From the NCBI GenBank assembly GCA_021838765.1, contig JAKCCY010000155.1:1-6030 (forward strand): a stretch of 6,030 bases of DNA, given 5' to 3'. Under the pieces are notes generated by a model. It was not told the origin of the DNA, did no database searches, and saw only the letters and a list, made by a program, of their open reading frames with translations. Within the stretch, counting starts at the first letter, position 1. Every line of letters begins with the position of its first letter. This stretch comes from Nitrospirota bacterium (lineage in GTDB: Bacteria; Nitrospirota_A; Leptospirillia; Leptospirillales; Leptospirillaceae). This document shows, one piece after another, positions 1-6,030 of the stretch. The position numbers and the translations under genes are program-made.

Positions 1-2592
1 CCTCCGCAGGAGGCACTCAACAAGAGGATCAGCCTCCCGGTTCTTGGGGCCCCTTATGCCCGGGTTCTTGAAAGCGGAGAACTGAGGCTCGACTATGACC
101 AGCAGGGGTTTGCCATTTACTACTGGGACAACCGGCTTCCTGTTTCACCGTTTTCCATCCTTCCGATTGTATCGGATATCGATGAGCGATACCGTCACTT
201 TATCAAGGAGAAGCCGGAAGATCATGTCGGAAGAATGGAGTCTTCGCGAATTCTCGAGGCCGTTGAAGATCTTTCCGGTAAGAGCAGGGAACCCGGAAAA
301 AACCGGATGAGAATCCGGAAGTCACGGTCTGTCCTTGGAAAACTGTGGAGTCTTTTCAGGAAGGATCCCGATTTTAAAAGGGCTGTTTCCGAGACAGTCG
401 CCTCTTACCGGGGCGTTCGCAGCGTTCCGTCTTCCTGGGACAGGCTGGACAGGATCATCAATGACCAGGTTTACTGGCTTTCCCATTGGAAGACGGTAAC
501 CAGAACGCTCAACTACCGCAGATTTTTTGATGTTGCGGATCTTGTCGGGATCAGGACAGAGGATCCGGGTGTCTTTTCGGCCCTTCATGGGTTGGTGATC
601 TCCCTTTGGAAAAAAGGATGGATCTCGGGGGTCAGGGTCGACCACGTCGACGGATTGTCCGACCCCGAAGGTTACCTGAAGACATTGTCAGAGGAACTGT
701 CCCTTGCATCGGGATCGTCCCTGAGCCCCGACATATGGGTGGAGAAGATTCTGCTTGAGGATGAGCAGGTTGACAGCCATTGGCCGGTCAATGGCACGAC
801 CGGGTACGATTTTTTAAACAGGATGAACCGCCTTTTTGTGGATCATGAAGGCGCGAACCGTCTCGCAATGTGGTACTCGGAGCGGATTGATCCCGGAGCT
901 TCCTTCAAGGACATCTGCTATCAGCAGAAAAAGAAGATCTGCGAGACGCTTTTGGGCGGAGAGCTCAGGCGTCTGACCTTTATCCTGGAATATCTGGCGC
1001 AGAAAAGCAGATATGCAAGGGAGCTGTCTTTCCGGGAGATACAGACAGGTCTTGTCGAAGTGACTGCCTGTATGAGTGTCTACCGGACGTATGTGCGGGA
1101 TGGCCATATCTCGGAGCAGGATCGGTTGGTCTTTAAAAAGACCCTTCAGGAGGCAAGACGGCGACATCCCGGGAGAAGGCGGGGGCTTTACCAGTTTTTC
1201 GAGCAGGTTTTCCTCATGGATTTCCCCGAGGGGATCTCTTCCGATCACCGCAAGCTCTGGATTGACTTTGTCAATCGTTGGCAACAGTTTACTGGTCCGG
1301 TCATGGCCAAGGGGGTTGAGGATACTTCCTTTTATCTGTACTCTCCGCTGATTTCAGCCAATGAAGTAGGGGGAGATCCGGAGCATCTGTCGACCTCTTC
1401 CGATCGCTTCCACACGCTGAACCGCAATCGCCTCGAACATGAGCCGAGAGCTCTTTCTGCGACGTCGACGCATGATACCAAGCGCAGCGAGGATGTCCGT
1501 GCGCGGATCAATGTTCTTTCAGAGATTTCCTCCGAATGGATCTCCCGGGCGGAAAAATGGATGAAGCTCAACCGTAAGGCCCGGATCCGCGGACAGTCGG
1601 ACTGGATCCCGGAACCGGGTCTTGAGCTTTTCATCTACCAGACCTTGTTGGGTGCATGGCCGCTTTCCAGAAACGAGGAGGAATCGTTCCGCACGAGAAT
1701 GGCCAGCTATCTCTTGAAAGTCGCCCGTGAGAGAAAGCGGCACTCTGACTGGATTACGCCGGATGTTGTCTATGAAGAAAGTCTTCTCGCATTCCTTTCA
1801 GGAATCCTCAGGGAGGAGCGGTCCAACCATTTTCTGGCCGATTTCCGGATCTTTCAAAGACGAATTGCCATTGGCGGGGCGATCAACTCCCTTGCCCAGA
1901 CGATTGTCAAGATCCTTTCCCCGGGAGTTCCTGACTTTTATCAGGGAACGGAACTGTGGGATTTCTCTCTTGTGGATCCCGACAACAGGCGACCGGTGGA
2001 TTATACGCTCAGGGAAAGACTTCTCGATGGAATCAGAGGCAGGATCAGGGAGGCTCCGGCAGCTCTTTTTGAAGAGCTTCTGTCCGGATGGGAGGATGGG
2101 AGGATAAAGCTTTATGTCACGCACGTCCTTCTTCAACTGCGAAGAGCTTTTCCCGACCTCTTTTGTTCCGGAGGGTACTATCCCTTGCCGGAGGAGTGGG
2201 AGGAGTCGGAACACATGTTCGGATTTGCGCGAATGCTGGGTGACCAGGTCGTTCTTCTGGCTGTTTCCAGAAAACCCCTCTCCTATGTCGACGGGCAATC
2301 GAGGCTCACGGTTGATCCGGGTGTCTGGGGCGATCGGCGCATGCCACTTCCCGCCGGGATCCCGGGTCCCCTGATCAACGCTTTTTCCGGTTGCCCGGTT
2401 CCTGTATCCCCGGAAGGGGACTCAGGGATGGCCGGCGAGTCATCTGTCAGAATGTCGGATGCCTTTGGAGGGTCACTTTTTACTGTTCTGGTCTCTTCTG
2501 GCCAATCCATCGGGAAAGCAGGGGAGGATGGTGTATCAACCGGAATCGGATACTTGCAGAAGGAGAGAGGTGGCGGTGGAGGAGTCGGTTAA
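1..2592 (+). CDS. treY: Maltooligosyl trehalose synthase (TreY), 5'-truncated by window edge
   Basis: The enzyme isomerises the reducing-end alpha-1,4 bond of maltodextrins to alpha,alpha-1,1, so that TreZ can release trehalose; it is a cytoplasmic GH13 protein. The frame is open from base 1, so the ATG at 235 is internal; 863 codons plus stop are visible. By comparison with known TreY proteins, roughly 150 N-terminal residues, including the first GH13 conserved region, are missing (inference). Window-codon landmarks: NKRISLPVLGAPY near the 5' edge; NYRRFFD at 171-177; RVDHVDGLSDP with nucleophile Asp214; WVEKIL with acid/base Glu248; WPVNGTTGYDF at 261-271; AKGVEDTSFY; STHDTKRSED with Asp492; PGVPDFYQGTELWDF from 641. 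All three catalytic carboxylates are present. The last ~35 residues run past the usual family end into a glycine-rich tail that overlaps the next gene's ribosome binding site and start. Family assignment is very secure. Confidence 0.95.
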   Translation, partial: PPQEALNKRISLPVLGAPYARVLESGELRLDYDQQGFAIYYWDNRLPVSPFSILPIVSDIDERYRHFIKEKPEDHVGRMESSRILEAVEDLSGKSREPGKNRMRIRKSRSVLGKLWSLFRKDPDFKRAVSETVASYRGVRSVPSSWDRLDRIINDQVYWLSHWKTVTRTLNYRRFFDVADLVGIRTEDPGVFSALHGLVISLWKKGWISGVRVDHVDGLSDPEGYLKTLSEELSLASGSSLSPDIWVEKILLEDEQVDSHWPVNGTTGYDFLNRMNRLFVDHEGANRLAMWYSERIDPGASFKDICYQQKKKICETLLGGELRRLTFILEYLAQKSRYARELSFREIQTGLVEVTACMSVYRTYVRDGHISEQDRLVFKKTLQEARRRHPGRRRGLYQFFEQVFLMDFPEGISSDHRKLWIDFVNRWQQFTGPVMAKGVEDTSFYLYSPLISANEVGGDPEHLSTSSDRFHTLNRNRLEHEPRALSATSTHDTKRSEDVRARINVLSEISSEWISRAEKWMKLNRKARIRGQSDWIPEPGLELFIYQTLLGAWPLSRNEEESFRTRMASYLLKVARERKRHSDWITPDVVYEESLLAFLSGILREERSNHFLADFRIFQRRIAIGGAINSLAQTIVKILSPGVPDFYQGTELWDFSLVDPDNRRPVDYTLRERLLDGIRGRIREAPAALFEELLSGWEDGRIKLYVTHVLLQLRRAFPDLFCSGGYYPLPEEWEESEHMFGFARMLGDQVVLLAVSRKPLSYVDGQSRLTVDPGVWGDRRMPLPAGIPGPLINAFSGCPVPVSPEGDSGMAGESSVRMSDAFGGSLFTVLVSSGQSIGKAGEDGVSTGIGYLQKERGGGGGVG
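2560..2565 (+). promoter_or_regulatory. Ribosome binding site for the TreS-like pseudoenzyme gene
   Basis: AAGGAG lies inside the treY 3' end, with 4 bases between it and GTG 2570 and 10 bases between it and an in-frame GTG at 2576. It supports a GTG start here over the upstream ATGs at 2459 and 2528. A second purine run, GGAGGAG at 2578-2584, has no start codon at a usual distance; the nearest in-frame TTG is at 2600. Confidence 0.55.
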
Positions 2593-4243
2593 TCCTATAT
2601 TGCACGGCGTGATGTACGAAATTTATATCAGGAGCTACTCGGACCATTCCGGAGACGGAACAGGGGATTTCCTGGGTATAGTGGATCGTCTGGACTATAT
2701 CTCCAGGCTTGGCGTCAGTTCGATTCTCCTGAACTGTCCTTTTCTGTCCGTGCACGGAAAAGACCATCATCCCCTTGTCGACTGGATGAAGATTGATCCC
2801 GAGCTGGGAACTCTTTCTGACTTTCTGCTCCTCCTTGAAAAATCCCACATGAGGGGCTTGAAAGTCCTTCTGTCCCTTCCGGTGAACGCGACAAGCGACC
2901 AGCATGTCTGGTTTTCCGAGTCCCGATCTGCGAAAAAATCCTTGTTTTCCAAGAGTTACTTCTGGTCGGAGACCCCTCCGCCGGAGCCGGAAACGCGACA
3001 CGACCCGCCGGAAAAAATCAACTGGACCCTTGACCCGGACTCCGGTCGCTATTACTGGTTCGGTGATCACAAGGACGAGCCGTCACTGAACTATGGTGAC
3101 GGAGAGGTCCTTGCCGAGATGTGCCGCATCTTTGAGCACTGGTTTGCCCTTGATGTTGACGGATTCCGGCTTGCCGGCGCTGGAAGGCTTCATGCCCGGA
3201 AGAAAAATGAAATTCTTCCCGTTTCGGATCCGTTCAAGGTGTTCCAGCCGGTTATTGCTCCGCTCAAAAAATCCTACCCGGAAAAAATGTTTCTGTTCGA
3301 GACAGGCTCTCCTCCCTCGGGGCAAAGGCAGGTGAATGACGCCAGGCTTTTTTATCACTTCAACCCCTTTTTTCCGGCGGTTATCTCTGCGATCAAGAAG
3401 GAGGACCGCTCTCCCCTCGAGCCCCTTCTGGAAGCGGGGAGCAAGGGGCGGACAAAAAAAAGTCTCCCCAGAAACAGGACCATCCATCTGAGGGAACGTT
3501 CGGAAGAAACCTTTGAACTGCTCAACAGCGAGTCTCTGGAGGATGCCCTTTTTCCGCTGGAGCCGGATCTCCCGGAAGACCGCCCGATCCTGTCCAGGGT
3601 TGCGCGTCTTATGGAAAATGGCCGGCGGAGGATCCAGCTGGTCATGAGCCTCTTCTTTACATTCCCGGGTCTTCCCGTCTTGTATTACGGAGATGAGATC
3701 GGGATGGGCGACCACCCGCATCTCAGGGGGAAAAACCCGATCCGCACTCCGATGCACTGGTCTGCCGACCGGAATGCCGGATTTTCCCGGGCCGATCCGG
3801 AAGAGCTTTTTAATCCTGTGATCGAAGACCCCCTTTATAGCTATCAGATGGTCAACGTGGAAAGTCAGGAGCGTTTTCCGGACTCCCATCTCTGGAACGT
3901 CCGGAAAATGATCGAGATTCGAAACCAGAACCCCCTTCTTTATGGAGACGGAGATTTTGACCTGGTCGAAACGAAGTCGGCATCGGTATTGGCCTATGTG
4001 AGATCGAGCGATGGGGCGACTGCCCTTTTCGTTCATAATCTCTCGAAGTCAGCAAGATTTGGGCACCTCGATCTCTCGAAATGGTATGGGTTCAAGCCGC
4101 GCGAAATGTTTTCCGGCGGCGTTTTTCCGACGGTGGCAAAGTCCCCCTATCTGCTTACGATGACACCCTATTCGACTATCTGGTTTTTGCTGGAGGCTCC
4201 GGCCAACAAGAAAGTGGCCAGGGTCCGGAGGAGGACGACTTGA
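2570..4243 (+). CDS. TreS-like GH13 protein with degenerate active site (predicted pseudoenzyme)
   Basis: This is a 557-residue paralogue of the TreS encoded immediately downstream, aligning along its whole length. What is seen: MYEIYIRSYSDHSGDG matches the TreS N-terminus, and GDEIGMGD (374-381), RTPMHWSADRN and YQMVNVESQ match its C-terminal half. The catalytic sites are changed: DGYD to DHHP (65-68), VLNH to PVNA (Ala107), QPDLN to EPSLN (170-174), nucleophile Asp to Ala202, and the RNHDE block to RERSE (308-312; NHD is ERS at 309-311). Only the acid/base-equivalent Glu244 and Arg200 of the nucleophile motif remain. Known: GH13 retaining enzymes need the nucleophile, so glycosidase or isomerase activity is very unlikely. 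There is no frameshift or internal stop. The GTG at 2570 was chosen for its Shine-Dalgarno and because it gives an N-terminus like that of TreS; ATG 2459 would lie deep inside treY. It overlaps treY by 23 bases and treS by 4. Inference: a structural or regulatory partner of TreS, or a glucan-binding protein. Confidence 0.88.
   Translation: MAVEESVNPILHGVMYEIYIRSYSDHSGDGTGDFLGIVDRLDYISRLGVSSILLNCPFLSVHGKDHHPLVDWMKIDPELGTLSDFLLLLEKSHMRGLKVLLSLPVNATSDQHVWFSESRSAKKSLFSKSYFWSETPPPEPETRHDPPEKINWTLDPDSGRYYWFGDHKDEPSLNYGDGEVLAEMCRIFEHWFALDVDGFRLAGAGRLHARKKNEILPVSDPFKVFQPVIAPLKKSYPEKMFLFETGSPPSGQRQVNDARLFYHFNPFFPAVISAIKKEDRSPLEPLLEAGSKGRTKKSLPRNRTIHLRERSEETFELLNSESLEDALFPLEPDLPEDRPILSRVARLMENGRRRIQLVMSLFFTFPGLPVLYYGDEIGMGDHPHLRGKNPIRTPMHWSADRNAGFSRADPEELFNPVIEDPLYSYQMVNVESQERFPDSHLWNVRKMIEIRNQNPLLYGDGDFDLVETKSASVLAYVRSSDGATALFVHNLSKSARFGHLDLSKWYGFKPREMFSGGVFPTVAKSPYLLTMTPYSTIWFLLEAPANKKVARVRRRTT
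4227..4234 (+). promoter_or_regulatory. Strong ribosome binding site fixing the TTG start of treS
   Basis: GGAGGAGG sits 5 bases before TTG 4240, within the last codons of the preceding gene. The TTG overlaps that gene's TGA stop as TTGA (4240-4243), a classic arrangement for translational coupling. The match and spacing decide the start over the in-frame ATG at 4081, which would add 53 non-homologous residues read out of frame from the upstream gene. Confidence 0.8.
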
Positions 4244-5949
4244 TCGGGAACAAGGAAGATGCTCTCTGGTACAAGGATGCGATTATTTATGAAATTCCTG
4301 TCAAATCTTTTTTTGATTCAAACAATGATGGCGTGGGTGACCTGAAGGGGCTCACACAAAAGCTCGACTATATCCAGAGCCTTGGTGTGACGGTGATCTG
4401 GCTTTTGCCGATCACGGACTCGCCACTCAGGGATGACGGCTACGATATACGGGATTATTACACCATACACAAGTCATATGGTTCGATGCAGGATTTCGAG
4501 GAGTTCCTTGCCCAGGCTCACCGTCGGGGGATCCGGGTCATTGCGGAGATGGTCCTCAATCATACATCGGACACTCATCCATGGTTTGTTTCGGCGCGGT
4601 CCTCCAGAAATTCTCCTTTCCGGGACTATTACGTCTGGAGCGATACGGTGGAGCGCTATCGGGAAACACGGATCATCTTTGGAGATTCGGAAAAGTCGAA
4701 CTGGACGTGGGAGCCGAAAACACATCAGTACTACTGGCACCGGTTTTTTTACCACCAGCCAGACCTGAACTTTGACAACCCGAAAGTTCAGGAGGAGATG
4801 CTCAATGTCGTCAAGTTCTGGTTTTCCCTCGGAGTTGATGGTCTCCGGGCCGATGCGGTCCCTTATCTGTACGAGCGTGAGGGAACATCCTGCGAGAATC
4901 TTCCTGAAACACATGCTTTTTTGAAAAGGCTCCGGGACGAAGTCGATCGACTTTTTCCCGGAAGGATGCTTCTGGCCGAGGCCAATCAATGGCCTCAGGA
5001 TGTCCTTCATTATTTTGGAAATGAAGACGAATTCCATATGGCCTATCACTTTCCCCTGATGCCCCGCCTTTTCATCGCCATCGCGCAGGGAGACAGAAAA
5101 CCGATTGTCGATATTCTGGACCAGACACCCGCAATCCCTGACTCCTGTCAATGGGCAATCTTTCTCCGCAACCATGACGAACTGACCCTTGAGATGGTTT
5201 CGGACCAGGAACGGGATTATCTCTGGTCGACCTATGCATCGGACCACCGGATGCGCCTTAATATCGGAATCAGGAGACGCCTTTCGCCGCTCATGTCGAA
5301 TGACAGACGGAAGATCGACCTGATGCAGAGTCTGCTCCTGACTCTCCCGGGGACTCCGATCCTTTATTACGGGGACGAGATCGGGATGGGCGACAATATT
5401 CACCTCGGAGACCGAAACGGGGTACGGACCCCCATGCAGTGGTCTTCGGACAGGAACGGCGGATTTTCGTTCGGAGATCCTTCCTCGCTGTTTTCTCCAC
5501 CAATCCAGAATGCTGTCTATGGTTTTCAGGTGGTCAATGTTGAGGTTCAGACAAAATACCCGACAAGTCCCCTCAACATGCTCAGGCAGATGATCGCGGT
5601 TCGCCAGTCCGTGCGGATCTTCGGAAGGGGAACGATGGAGCTTCTTGCTCCCAAAAACAGGAAAATAATGTCCTATCTCAGGACGTTTGAGGGGAAAGTG
5701 GTTCTGGTGATCAACAACCTGTCCGATTCAACCGAATCGTTATCGATCGATCTCTCCCGCTATTCCGGCTGGACTCCTGTTGAAATGTTCAGCCAGACTC
5801 CTTTTCCGGAAATCTCAAGGCTTCCCTATCATTTTTCCGTCAGCCCGTACGGCTTTTTCTGGCTTCTCCTCTCCCCGCCCGAGAGGCGGGAGAAAAAACG
5901 AAACGGGACAGATAGACTCTCTGCTCCTTTAGCCCAGACGAAAGGATAA
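4240..5949 (+). CDS. treS: Trehalose synthase (maltose alpha-D-glucosyltransferase), TreS
   Basis: TreS reversibly converts trehalose and maltose by intramolecular glucosyl transfer; with a maltokinase it feeds maltose-1-phosphate to GlgE. The protein is 569 residues, the size of stand-alone TreS, with no fused maltokinase domain. The GH13 (subfamily 16 type) conserved sites are all present: GVTVIWLLP, DDGYDIRD (Tyr68, Asp69), VLNHTSD (His108), QPDLN (173-177), GLRADAVPY with nucleophile Asp205 and Arg203, AEANQWP with acid/base Glu247, LRNHDELT with His312 and stabilising Asp313, and GDEIGMGD (378-385) followed by RTPMQWSSDRN. The last ~20 residues form a charged tail beyond the beta-sandwich end. 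It starts at TTG 4240 (see the Shine-Dalgarno), overlapping the pseudoenzyme gene by 4 bases and ending 2 bases before the glgE-like gene. No signal peptide is seen, so it is presumably cytoplasmic. Confidence 0.95.
   Translation: MIGNKEDALWYKDAIIYEIPVKSFFDSNNDGVGDLKGLTQKLDYIQSLGVTVIWLLPITDSPLRDDGYDIRDYYTIHKSYGSMQDFEEFLAQAHRRGIRVIAEMVLNHTSDTHPWFVSARSSRNSPFRDYYVWSDTVERYRETRIIFGDSEKSNWTWEPKTHQYYWHRFFYHQPDLNFDNPKVQEEMLNVVKFWFSLGVDGLRADAVPYLYEREGTSCENLPETHAFLKRLRDEVDRLFPGRMLLAEANQWPQDVLHYFGNEDEFHMAYHFPLMPRLFIAIAQGDRKPIVDILDQTPAIPDSCQWAIFLRNHDELTLEMVSDQERDYLWSTYASDHRMRLNIGIRRRLSPLMSNDRRKIDLMQSLLLTLPGTPILYYGDEIGMGDNIHLGDRNGVRTPMQWSSDRNGGFSFGDPSSLFSPPIQNAVYGFQVVNVEVQTKYPTSPLNMLRQMIAVRQSVRIFGRGTMELLAPKNRKIMSYLRTFEGKVVLVINNLSDSTESLSIDLSRYSGWTPVEMFSQTPFPEISRLPYHFSVSPYGFFWLLLSPPERREKKRNGTDRLSAPLAQTKG
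5870..5893 (+). other. GC-rich inverted repeat near the treS 3' end
   Basis: CCCGCC (5874-5879) pairs with GGCGGG (5885-5890) around a 5-base loop; TCT/AGA extends the stem by 3 pairs across one bulged C. It lies in the codons for the charged TreS tail, about 60 bases before the next start. It is followed by a run of A, not T, so it is not an intrinsic terminator on this strand. It may be an mRNA hairpin or simply a by-product of the coding sequence. Confidence 0.3.
5941..5946 (+). promoter_or_regulatory. Ribosome binding site for the glgE-like gene
   Basis: AAAGGA forms the last sense codons of treS and lies 5 bases before ATG 5952, supporting that start and co-translation with treS. Confidence 0.6.
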
Positions 5950-5951
5950 TT

Positions 5952-6030
5952 ATGAATCAGCTTGGTGACCGTGACCTTTTTTCGGGAGAGAGACCCCCGT
6001 CCCGGGTTGTGATCGAAAGAGTCGATCCCC
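5952..6030 (+). CDS. glgE: Probable GlgE (alpha-1,4-glucan:maltose-1-phosphate maltosyltransferase), N-terminal fragment
   Basis: Only 26 codons are visible before the window ends. After a short leader the protein reads SRVVIERVDP, which resembles the opening of the GlgE N-terminal domain (typically a 'RVVIE.V.P..DGGRFP' pattern). GlgE, a cytoplasmic GH13 subfamily 3 enzyme, adds maltosyl units from maltose-1-phosphate to alpha-1,4-glucan. The position directly after treS, with a 2-base gap, fits: TreS plus maltokinase supplies the donor. The call rests on about ten residues plus gene context; no catalytic residue can be seen. Alternatives are another glucan-active enzyme, such as a branching enzyme, or a maltokinase, but the N-terminal pattern favours GlgE. 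Confidence 0.72.
   Translation, partial: MNQLGDRDLFSGERPPSRVVIERVDP

Follow-up and report, generated by a model that had tools for sequence, protein, structure and literature searches.

The window, the whole 6,030-nucleotide stretch of DNA analyzed here, carries treY, a gene that we call pseudo-treS, treS, and the start of a fourth gene, all on the plus strand (Table 1). The pseudo-treS open reading frame runs from a GTG to a TGA codon, encodes 557 amino acids with no internal stop, and begins inside the end of treY, with an overlap of 23 bases. Further in-frame start codons lie close by, and a database cluster that matches the window protein at 100% (P0018) is 570 amino acids long, which makes the precise start codon a matter of choice. 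The fourth gene has a translated beginning that we take to resemble GlgE; in the nearest relative, locus L061, GlgE is encoded at the same position (L061:11199-13166; PF11896, 161.6 bits). A mechanical listing of open reading frames also contains long minus-strand frames antisense to the tre genes (window 322-645, 814-1284, 3083-4036, and 4474-5403).

Table 1. Features of the window, with coordinates, strand, and basis of assignment
Feature	Position	Strand	Basis
treY, maltooligosyltrehalose synthase (5' end beyond the window)	1..2592	+	TIGR02401, 673.6 bits against a cut-off of 498.65
AAGGAG, Shine-Dalgarno-like, ahead of the pseudo-treS GTG	2560..2569	+	Sequence
pseudo-treS, predicted full-length TreS fold lacking the nucleophile and the transition-state Asp	2570..4243	+	Homology, predicted fold
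TTGA, treS start codon (TTG) on the pseudo-treS stop codon, putative translational coupling signal; GGAGGA upstream	4240..4243	+	Sequence
treS, catalytic signature intact (YDHDRDEHDR)	4240..5949	+	TIGR02456, 880.3 bits
Beginning of a fourth gene, probable glgE	5952..6030	+	Sequence; GlgE at the same place in the nearest relative

Pseudo-TreS aligns with the downstream TreS across its whole length at 35% identity and has the same domain order, Alpha-amylase followed by Malt_amylase_C. TreS itself we take to be GH13_16. Against the TreS model TIGR02456, pseudo-TreS scores 407.7 bits, under the cut-off of 678.35 that its partner exceeds (Table 1). Its closest solved relatives by sequence are TreS chains, and in a Foldseek search with its predicted structure the first 28 rows were all TreS (query TM 0.79-0.82; 0.81 and 0.83 against 5h2t). 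The model, which was built from a 95-sequence alignment and superseded an earlier one built from 42 sequences, has a pLDDT of 79.9 and is weak at 311-340, 401-408, and 421-424, with most of S7 and the S8 stretches 401-408 and 421-424 below 50. By full-length alignment and Foldseek matching to TreS chains, the protein has the barrel, subdomains B, S7, and S8, and the C-terminal beta domain. The first-pass annotation had read this gene as an intact, full-length TreS paralogue with a dismantled active site, and both parts of that description hold.

Specifically, comparison of the window TreS (P0002) with pseudo-TreS (P0001) shows loss of the nucleophile (D199 to A202), the transition-state Asp and its His (D307 to S311 and H306 to R310), the subsite -1 Tyr and Asp (Y62 to H67 and D63 to P68), the region I His (H102 to A107), and the region V Asp (D169 to S172). 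All of the substitutions named in the first-pass annotation are correct; its TreS numbers are 6 higher because our translation of P0002 began 18 bases past the TTG. Absent from that annotation were three retained residues, the general acid/base Glu (E241 in P0002, E244 in P0001) and two Arg (R197 to R200 and R390 to R392). The Asp-Glu-Asp triad is accordingly Ala202, Glu244, and Ser311 in pseudo-TreS. In the Deinococcus radiodurans enzyme (DrTS), subsite +1 requires Tyr213, Glu320, and Glu324 (PMC4257617); all 37 distinct aligned pseudo-TreS rows have Arg206 at the Tyr213 place, and both Glu are retained. From these residues, pseudo-TreS is presumably without catalytic activity.

The same sites are altered in the window and in L001-L015 (16 intact aligned copies), with Ala/Ser exchanges among them. 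Across protein databases, P0001 and 23 clusters have the dead signature HP[AS][AS]R[AS][EG]RSR at the positions covered, P0025 being partly covered. Ser occupies the nucleophile place in L007, P0013, and P0016; in P0017 it stands where the region I His would be. Both catalytic Asp are gone in every aligned member where covered. The intact signature YDHDRDEHDR is found in 97 of 98 other TreS (P0002 and 97 further matches). In the remaining one, the TreS of a Hyalangium MAG (P0048), Tyr replaces the region V Asp and the signature is otherwise intact. Because the same positions are changed across intact copies and clusters, the substitutions reflect neither chance nor sequencing error. Annotation masks them: 3 of the 23 clusters (P0012, P0020, and P0025) bear the JGI name "maltose alpha-D-glucosyltransferase/alpha-amylase."

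We scanned GTDB species genomes with a sequence pattern, a method that detects close relatives only, and obtained 16 loci with 53-64% identity from 15 MAGs or assemblies whose titles read Nitrospirae bacterium or Leptospirillum sp. Among the best 120 of 5835 matches in a protein search, 23 clusters scored at least 776 bits; no further score lies above 442 bits, the level at which active TreS start to appear. The 21 genomes of the family that were examined, which are also every genome given by a search of the class Leptospirillia, overlap the loci of the GTDB scan. Pseudo-treS and treS occur in 17 of them, adjoining and with pseudo-treS directly before treS each time, and neither gene is found without the other in this set. 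Four genomes lack both; in one (G011) the contig ends inside treY, and the other three (G012, G014, and G020) are incomplete or without the pathway, since TreY, GlgE, and the maltokinase Pep2 are undetected there too. Among 295 Nitrospirota genomes sampled from a larger group and searched at E<=1e-60, 69 matched, and no member of the pseudo-TreS family was found outside Leptospirillia; the 52 non-Leptospirillia genomes had one TreS-like match each, of at most 423 bits.

At every one of 18 loci except L007, the treS start codon lies within an NTGA on the pseudo-treS stop codon (17/18), and a GGAGG-like site usually precedes it; the treY/pseudo-treS junction is variable among loci. In a genome assembled as one contig of 2,559,538 bp (G010), which we take to be L. 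ferrooxidans, the order is treZ, treY, pseudo-treS, treS, glgE, and a putative maltokinase gene. The treY-treS-glgE operon proposed in the first-pass annotation stands for the nearest relative, where GlgE follows treS, and does not extend to L013, where glgX comes directly after treS. In G008 (locus L032) the pair, its NTGA overlap present, is located away from treY and glgE, flanked by an HflX gene and an uncharacterized ORF and by two M16 peptidase genes; TreY, GlgE, and Pep2 were undetected in this genome, which may be partial. Since pair and overlap persist there outside the tre operon, the constant unit is the pseudo-treS/treS pair and not the operon. Pep2 was detected in 10 of the 21 genomes.

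Several loci have features of their own. In L062, where the pair lies outside the tre operon, an uncharacterized 368-amino-acid ORF (L062:5425-6531) ends 4 bases into pseudo-treS; neither Pfam nor NCBIfam gives a match for it at E<=1e-8. The MAG G003 contains two pairs, L007 and L063 (G003:C30:1-14000), the latter outside the tre operon near resolvase and IS605-type transposase genes and reflecting either the presence of another strain in the bin or mobilization of the pair. In one MAG, pseudo-treS is split over two overlapping frames (L016:931-2705), a frameshift that is either real decay or an assembly error. In the set of 21 genomes, the frameshifted pseudo-treS is that of G007, where treS adjoins it.

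Pseudo-treS is under purifying selection. By the NG86 method, applied to 17 loci (L012 and L016 left out), omega for pseudo-treS had a median of 0.152 and a range of 0.047-0.346 in the 99 of 136 pairs with dS<2; medians were 0.104 for treS (104 pairs) and 0.236 for treY (54 pairs). In the six closest pairs, pseudo-treS and treS had similar values (0.07-0.14). Between the window and its nearest relative, L031, omega was 0.047 for pseudo-treS (557 codons), 0.024 for treS (491), and 0.154 for treY (497), values that rest on high dS (1.4-1.9). The top omega among the 24 closest pairs listed belongs to a pair with L032. The first-pass annotation had suggested selection for a non-catalytic role and not decay, and the data agree, the non-catalytic part resting on the missing residues: the gene occurs in 17 of 21 Leptospirillia genomes and 23 protein clusters as opposed to a single genome, omega is far below 1, and the nucleophile-less homologs adjoining treS that it proposed to look for are present in other genomes, adjacent in 17 of 17.

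The pseudo-TreS family is monophyletic (support 100/100), and its branching order broadly mirrors that of the partner TreS. Measured as protein distance, its divergence is greater than that of treS by a factor of about 1.9 (136 pairs) and is 0.61 of that of treY (78 pairs). In a mirror-tree comparison the correlation of its distances is 0.97 for treY (78 pairs); for treS it is 0.85 (136 pairs). The comparison does not favor treS over treY, and we rejected it as proof of partnership. Placement of the duplication on the TreS tree was likewise abandoned, because the pseudo-TreS stem is very long (1.89 + 2.25 across the midpoint) and long branches meet there.

The residues that pseudo-TreS has kept are unevenly distributed. 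In DrTS the dimer interface is formed mainly by domain C and S8, and B and S7 form the gateway (PMC4257617). We defined TreS-universal residues as those present in at least 90% of other TreS (n = 250), the comparison set being the top matches of a pseudo-TreS profile plus 14 Nitrospirota TreS, and transferred region limits from DrTS to P0001 by motif, an estimate with which an earlier region cut agrees. The pseudo-TreS family keeps 28/38 universal residues in S8 and 16/25 in domain C, as opposed to 16/41 in B, 9/31 in S7, and 39/115 in the remainder; S8 and domain C together keep 44/63, against 64/187 elsewhere (Fisher p = 1e-6, with residues treated as independent). S8 is also the sole region where uniformity within the family equals that of Leptospirillia TreS (0.92 in both). 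Uniformity over domain C as a whole (0.73) is not above that of the barrel (0.76), though most of its universal residues are kept. Because the kept regions S8 and C are the dimer surfaces of DrTS and the eroded regions B and S7 its gateway, what remains is mainly the protomer-contact parts, and what has been lost is the catalytic parts.

The active Leptospirillia TreS, for its part, departs from universal residues at 15 sites where pseudo-TreS keeps the usual residue. These include P0002 positions 152, 278, 401, 418, 523, and 524, and 8 of the 15 lie in S8 or domain C; they could be the mark of an interface divided between two proteins.

We propose that pseudo-TreS is a subunit with no catalytic role of its own and the partner of the active TreS encoded directly after it, a reading to which we give a probability of roughly 0.68 on sequence evidence. 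It is favored by the dead signature together with purifying selection, by the unbroken adjacency and co-occurrence of the two genes in the genomes examined, by the start-stop overlap, by the retention of interface regions, and by a monophyletic family that branches broadly like its partner. Early in Leptospirillia, a treS copy would have lost the nucleophile and transition-state Asp along with its subsite -1 residues and a large part of the gateway (B and S7) while retaining the surfaces through which TreS protomers dimerize, S8 and domain C. The two proteins would then be made in coupled fashion from a single message and assemble as a pseudo-TreS:TreS heteromer, in which the dead subunit might hold TreS in its working shape or might supply a surface for regulation or docking, to which Pep2 could attach or, at the rebuilt pocket, a ligand. 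Retention of S8 and domain C could also be explained by folding or self-dimerization alone. Several points count against the heteromer: pseudo-TreS distances track treY more closely than treS, homodimers would keep S8 and C too, pseudo-TreS diverges faster than TreS, domain C as a whole is no more uniform than the barrel, the L016 copy is frameshifted, and L007 lacks the overlap.

One version of the heteromer, compatible with the general proposal and in our judgment unlikely, is that the dead subunit took over Pep2 docking from TreS, so that Pep2 binds via pseudo-TreS. In mycobacterial TreS, the Pep2-contact positions include Arg320, Pro511, and Arg536 (PMC6509496). At the Arg536 place, pseudo-TreS has Lys in 17/17 loci and 22/22 clusters (overlapping sets) and Leptospirillia TreS has Asp (17/17 scorable; 1/18 not scorable); at the Pro511 place, pseudo-TreS has Pro in 15/17 loci and 20/22 clusters, and Leptospirillia TreS mostly Arg (13/18). 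At these two of the three positions pseudo-TreS thus keeps the residue type of the mycobacterial contacts, a pattern that would suit a transfer of docking, but the two loci without Pro, which have Ala, are L031 and the window itself, and the Arg320 place, Gln, Arg, or Lys in TreS, is Asn, Ser, Asp, or Glu in 16/17 pseudo-TreS loci. The sites also vary anyway, with Arg at the Pro511 place in 60/97 other TreS and Glu or Gly at the Arg536 place in 10/14 Nitrospirota TreS. Moreover, Pep2 was detected in 10 of the 21 Leptospirillia genomes, and the G008 copy keeps its Lys with Pep2 undetected. Leptospirillia Pep2 is too divergent for placing partner residues, and an attempt to map the mycobacterial salt bridges onto it was dropped because the alignment is too weak there. 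In another version, which we consider very improbable, the rebuilt pocket, with its new fixed basic residues, would bind a phosphorylated pathway sugar such as maltose 1-phosphate and signal its presence to TreS, with domain C carrying the maltokinase; if true, pseudo-TreS would be a GH13 pseudoenzyme from bacteria that regulates its own paralogue allosterically.

Alternatively, pseudo-TreS could act on its own, as a homo-oligomer that senses sugars or sugar phosphates or binds glucan and is merely an operon-mate of treS. The new fixed basic residues in the old pocket (H67, R206, and R310, beside R200 and R392) fit such a role, as does the better correlation of its distances with treY than with treS. 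We regard it as distinctly unlikely, however, as the gene never occurs without treS in the genomes examined and is coupled to treS even outside the tre operon; its retained regions correspond to the TreS dimer interface, though homodimers would explain that too.

Very unlikely, too, is a neofunctionalized enzyme with a new activity built on the retained Glu244 and on new fixed polar pocket residues (H67, D166, E170, R206, and R310). The nucleophile place is without a carboxylate in every family member compared, and Glu244, although kept in P0001 and 21/23 clusters, is Gly in P0023 and P0024; P0023 is almost the same sequence as L032, a locus that still has the gene together with treS. The former active-site shell could be taken for that of an enzyme, in that it is tighter than the rest of pseudo-TreS (0.44 against 0.91 bits, with 0/2000 random draws as low) and in that 20 TreS-universal residues, many surrounding the old pocket, have each been swapped for one fixed residue. 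The same shell is far tighter still in other TreS (0.17 bits, against 0.91 for the rest), 43 TreS-universal residues vary in the family (78 are kept), and the S7 gateway is eroded. Finally, a decaying pseudogene that still looks intact, suggested by the many lost sites and the frameshifted copy in L016, is ruled out by the dN/dS values and the breadth of occurrence, with open frames at the other loci and fixed replacement residues.

Pseudo-TreS resembles described TreS (TIGR02456; PDB 5h2t, 5x7u, 3zo9, and 4tvu) in whole-length homology, domain order, and predicted fold and differs from it in lacking the nucleophile, the transition-state Asp, the region I His, the subsite -1 Tyr and Asp, the region V Asp, and subsite +1 Tyr213 (Arg here), and in scoring under the TIGR02456 cut-off. 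Dead GH13 folds serve as partner subunits in the SLC3 heavy chains rBAT and 4F2hc, whose partner is a membrane transporter and not an active paralogue; rBAT is among the PDB sequence matches of pseudo-TreS. A parallel within GH13 is plant ISA2, the non-catalytic partner of ISA1, likewise a GH13 paralogue without catalytic residues, including the nucleophile, beside an active paralogue, and retained since the common ancestor of its lineage (PMC12510319). Like ISA2, pseudo-TreS combines conserved catalytic loss, purifying selection, and an active paralogue in 17/17 genomes; the plant pair differs in belonging to another GH13 subfamily, in being eukaryotic and debranching, and in that its complex is demonstrated, whereas ours is proposed. 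The Trypanosoma prozyme, a dead AdoMetDC paralogue, heterodimerizes with and activates its enzyme (PMC5201418, PMC6221367); that family is unrelated, and activation is only one possibility for pseudo-TreS. In mycobacterial TreS:Pep2, a 4+4 complex around a TreS homotetramer core, TreS serves the GlgE pathway as an oligomeric platform (PMC6509496); the likeness is in the platform, and the difference is in the homotetrameric core, the portions of that report consulted mentioning no dead copy.

In Leptospirillum, several L. ferriphilum genes have been annotated "trehalose synthase" (PMC4769503), and in sessile L. ferrooxidans treS is reported to be upregulated over 6-fold (PMC2996932); the accessible portions of these reports do not mention a missing active site. 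In line with the first-pass annotation, which knew of no TreS pseudoenzyme encoded in a treY-treS-glgE operon, we found no description of a dead, inactive, or heteromeric TreS in the open-access literature as far as its texts were available. Dead GH13 paralogues that serve an active one are already known from plants, and the TreS case appears to be new.

TreS is the gate between trehalose, a stress solute, and GlgE-type glucan, and the TreS structures described in the reports drawn on here are homo-oligomers (PMC4257617, PMC6509496). If iron-oxidizing, Leptospirillum-type bacteria conserve a dead twin throughout their class and produce it in step with TreS, a heteromer would be able to run the TreS step. 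Why non-catalytic GH13 copies are retained is not understood, according to the authors of the ISA2 study (PMC12510319), and the pseudo-treS/treS pair is a simple two-gene system in which to ask why such copies persist.
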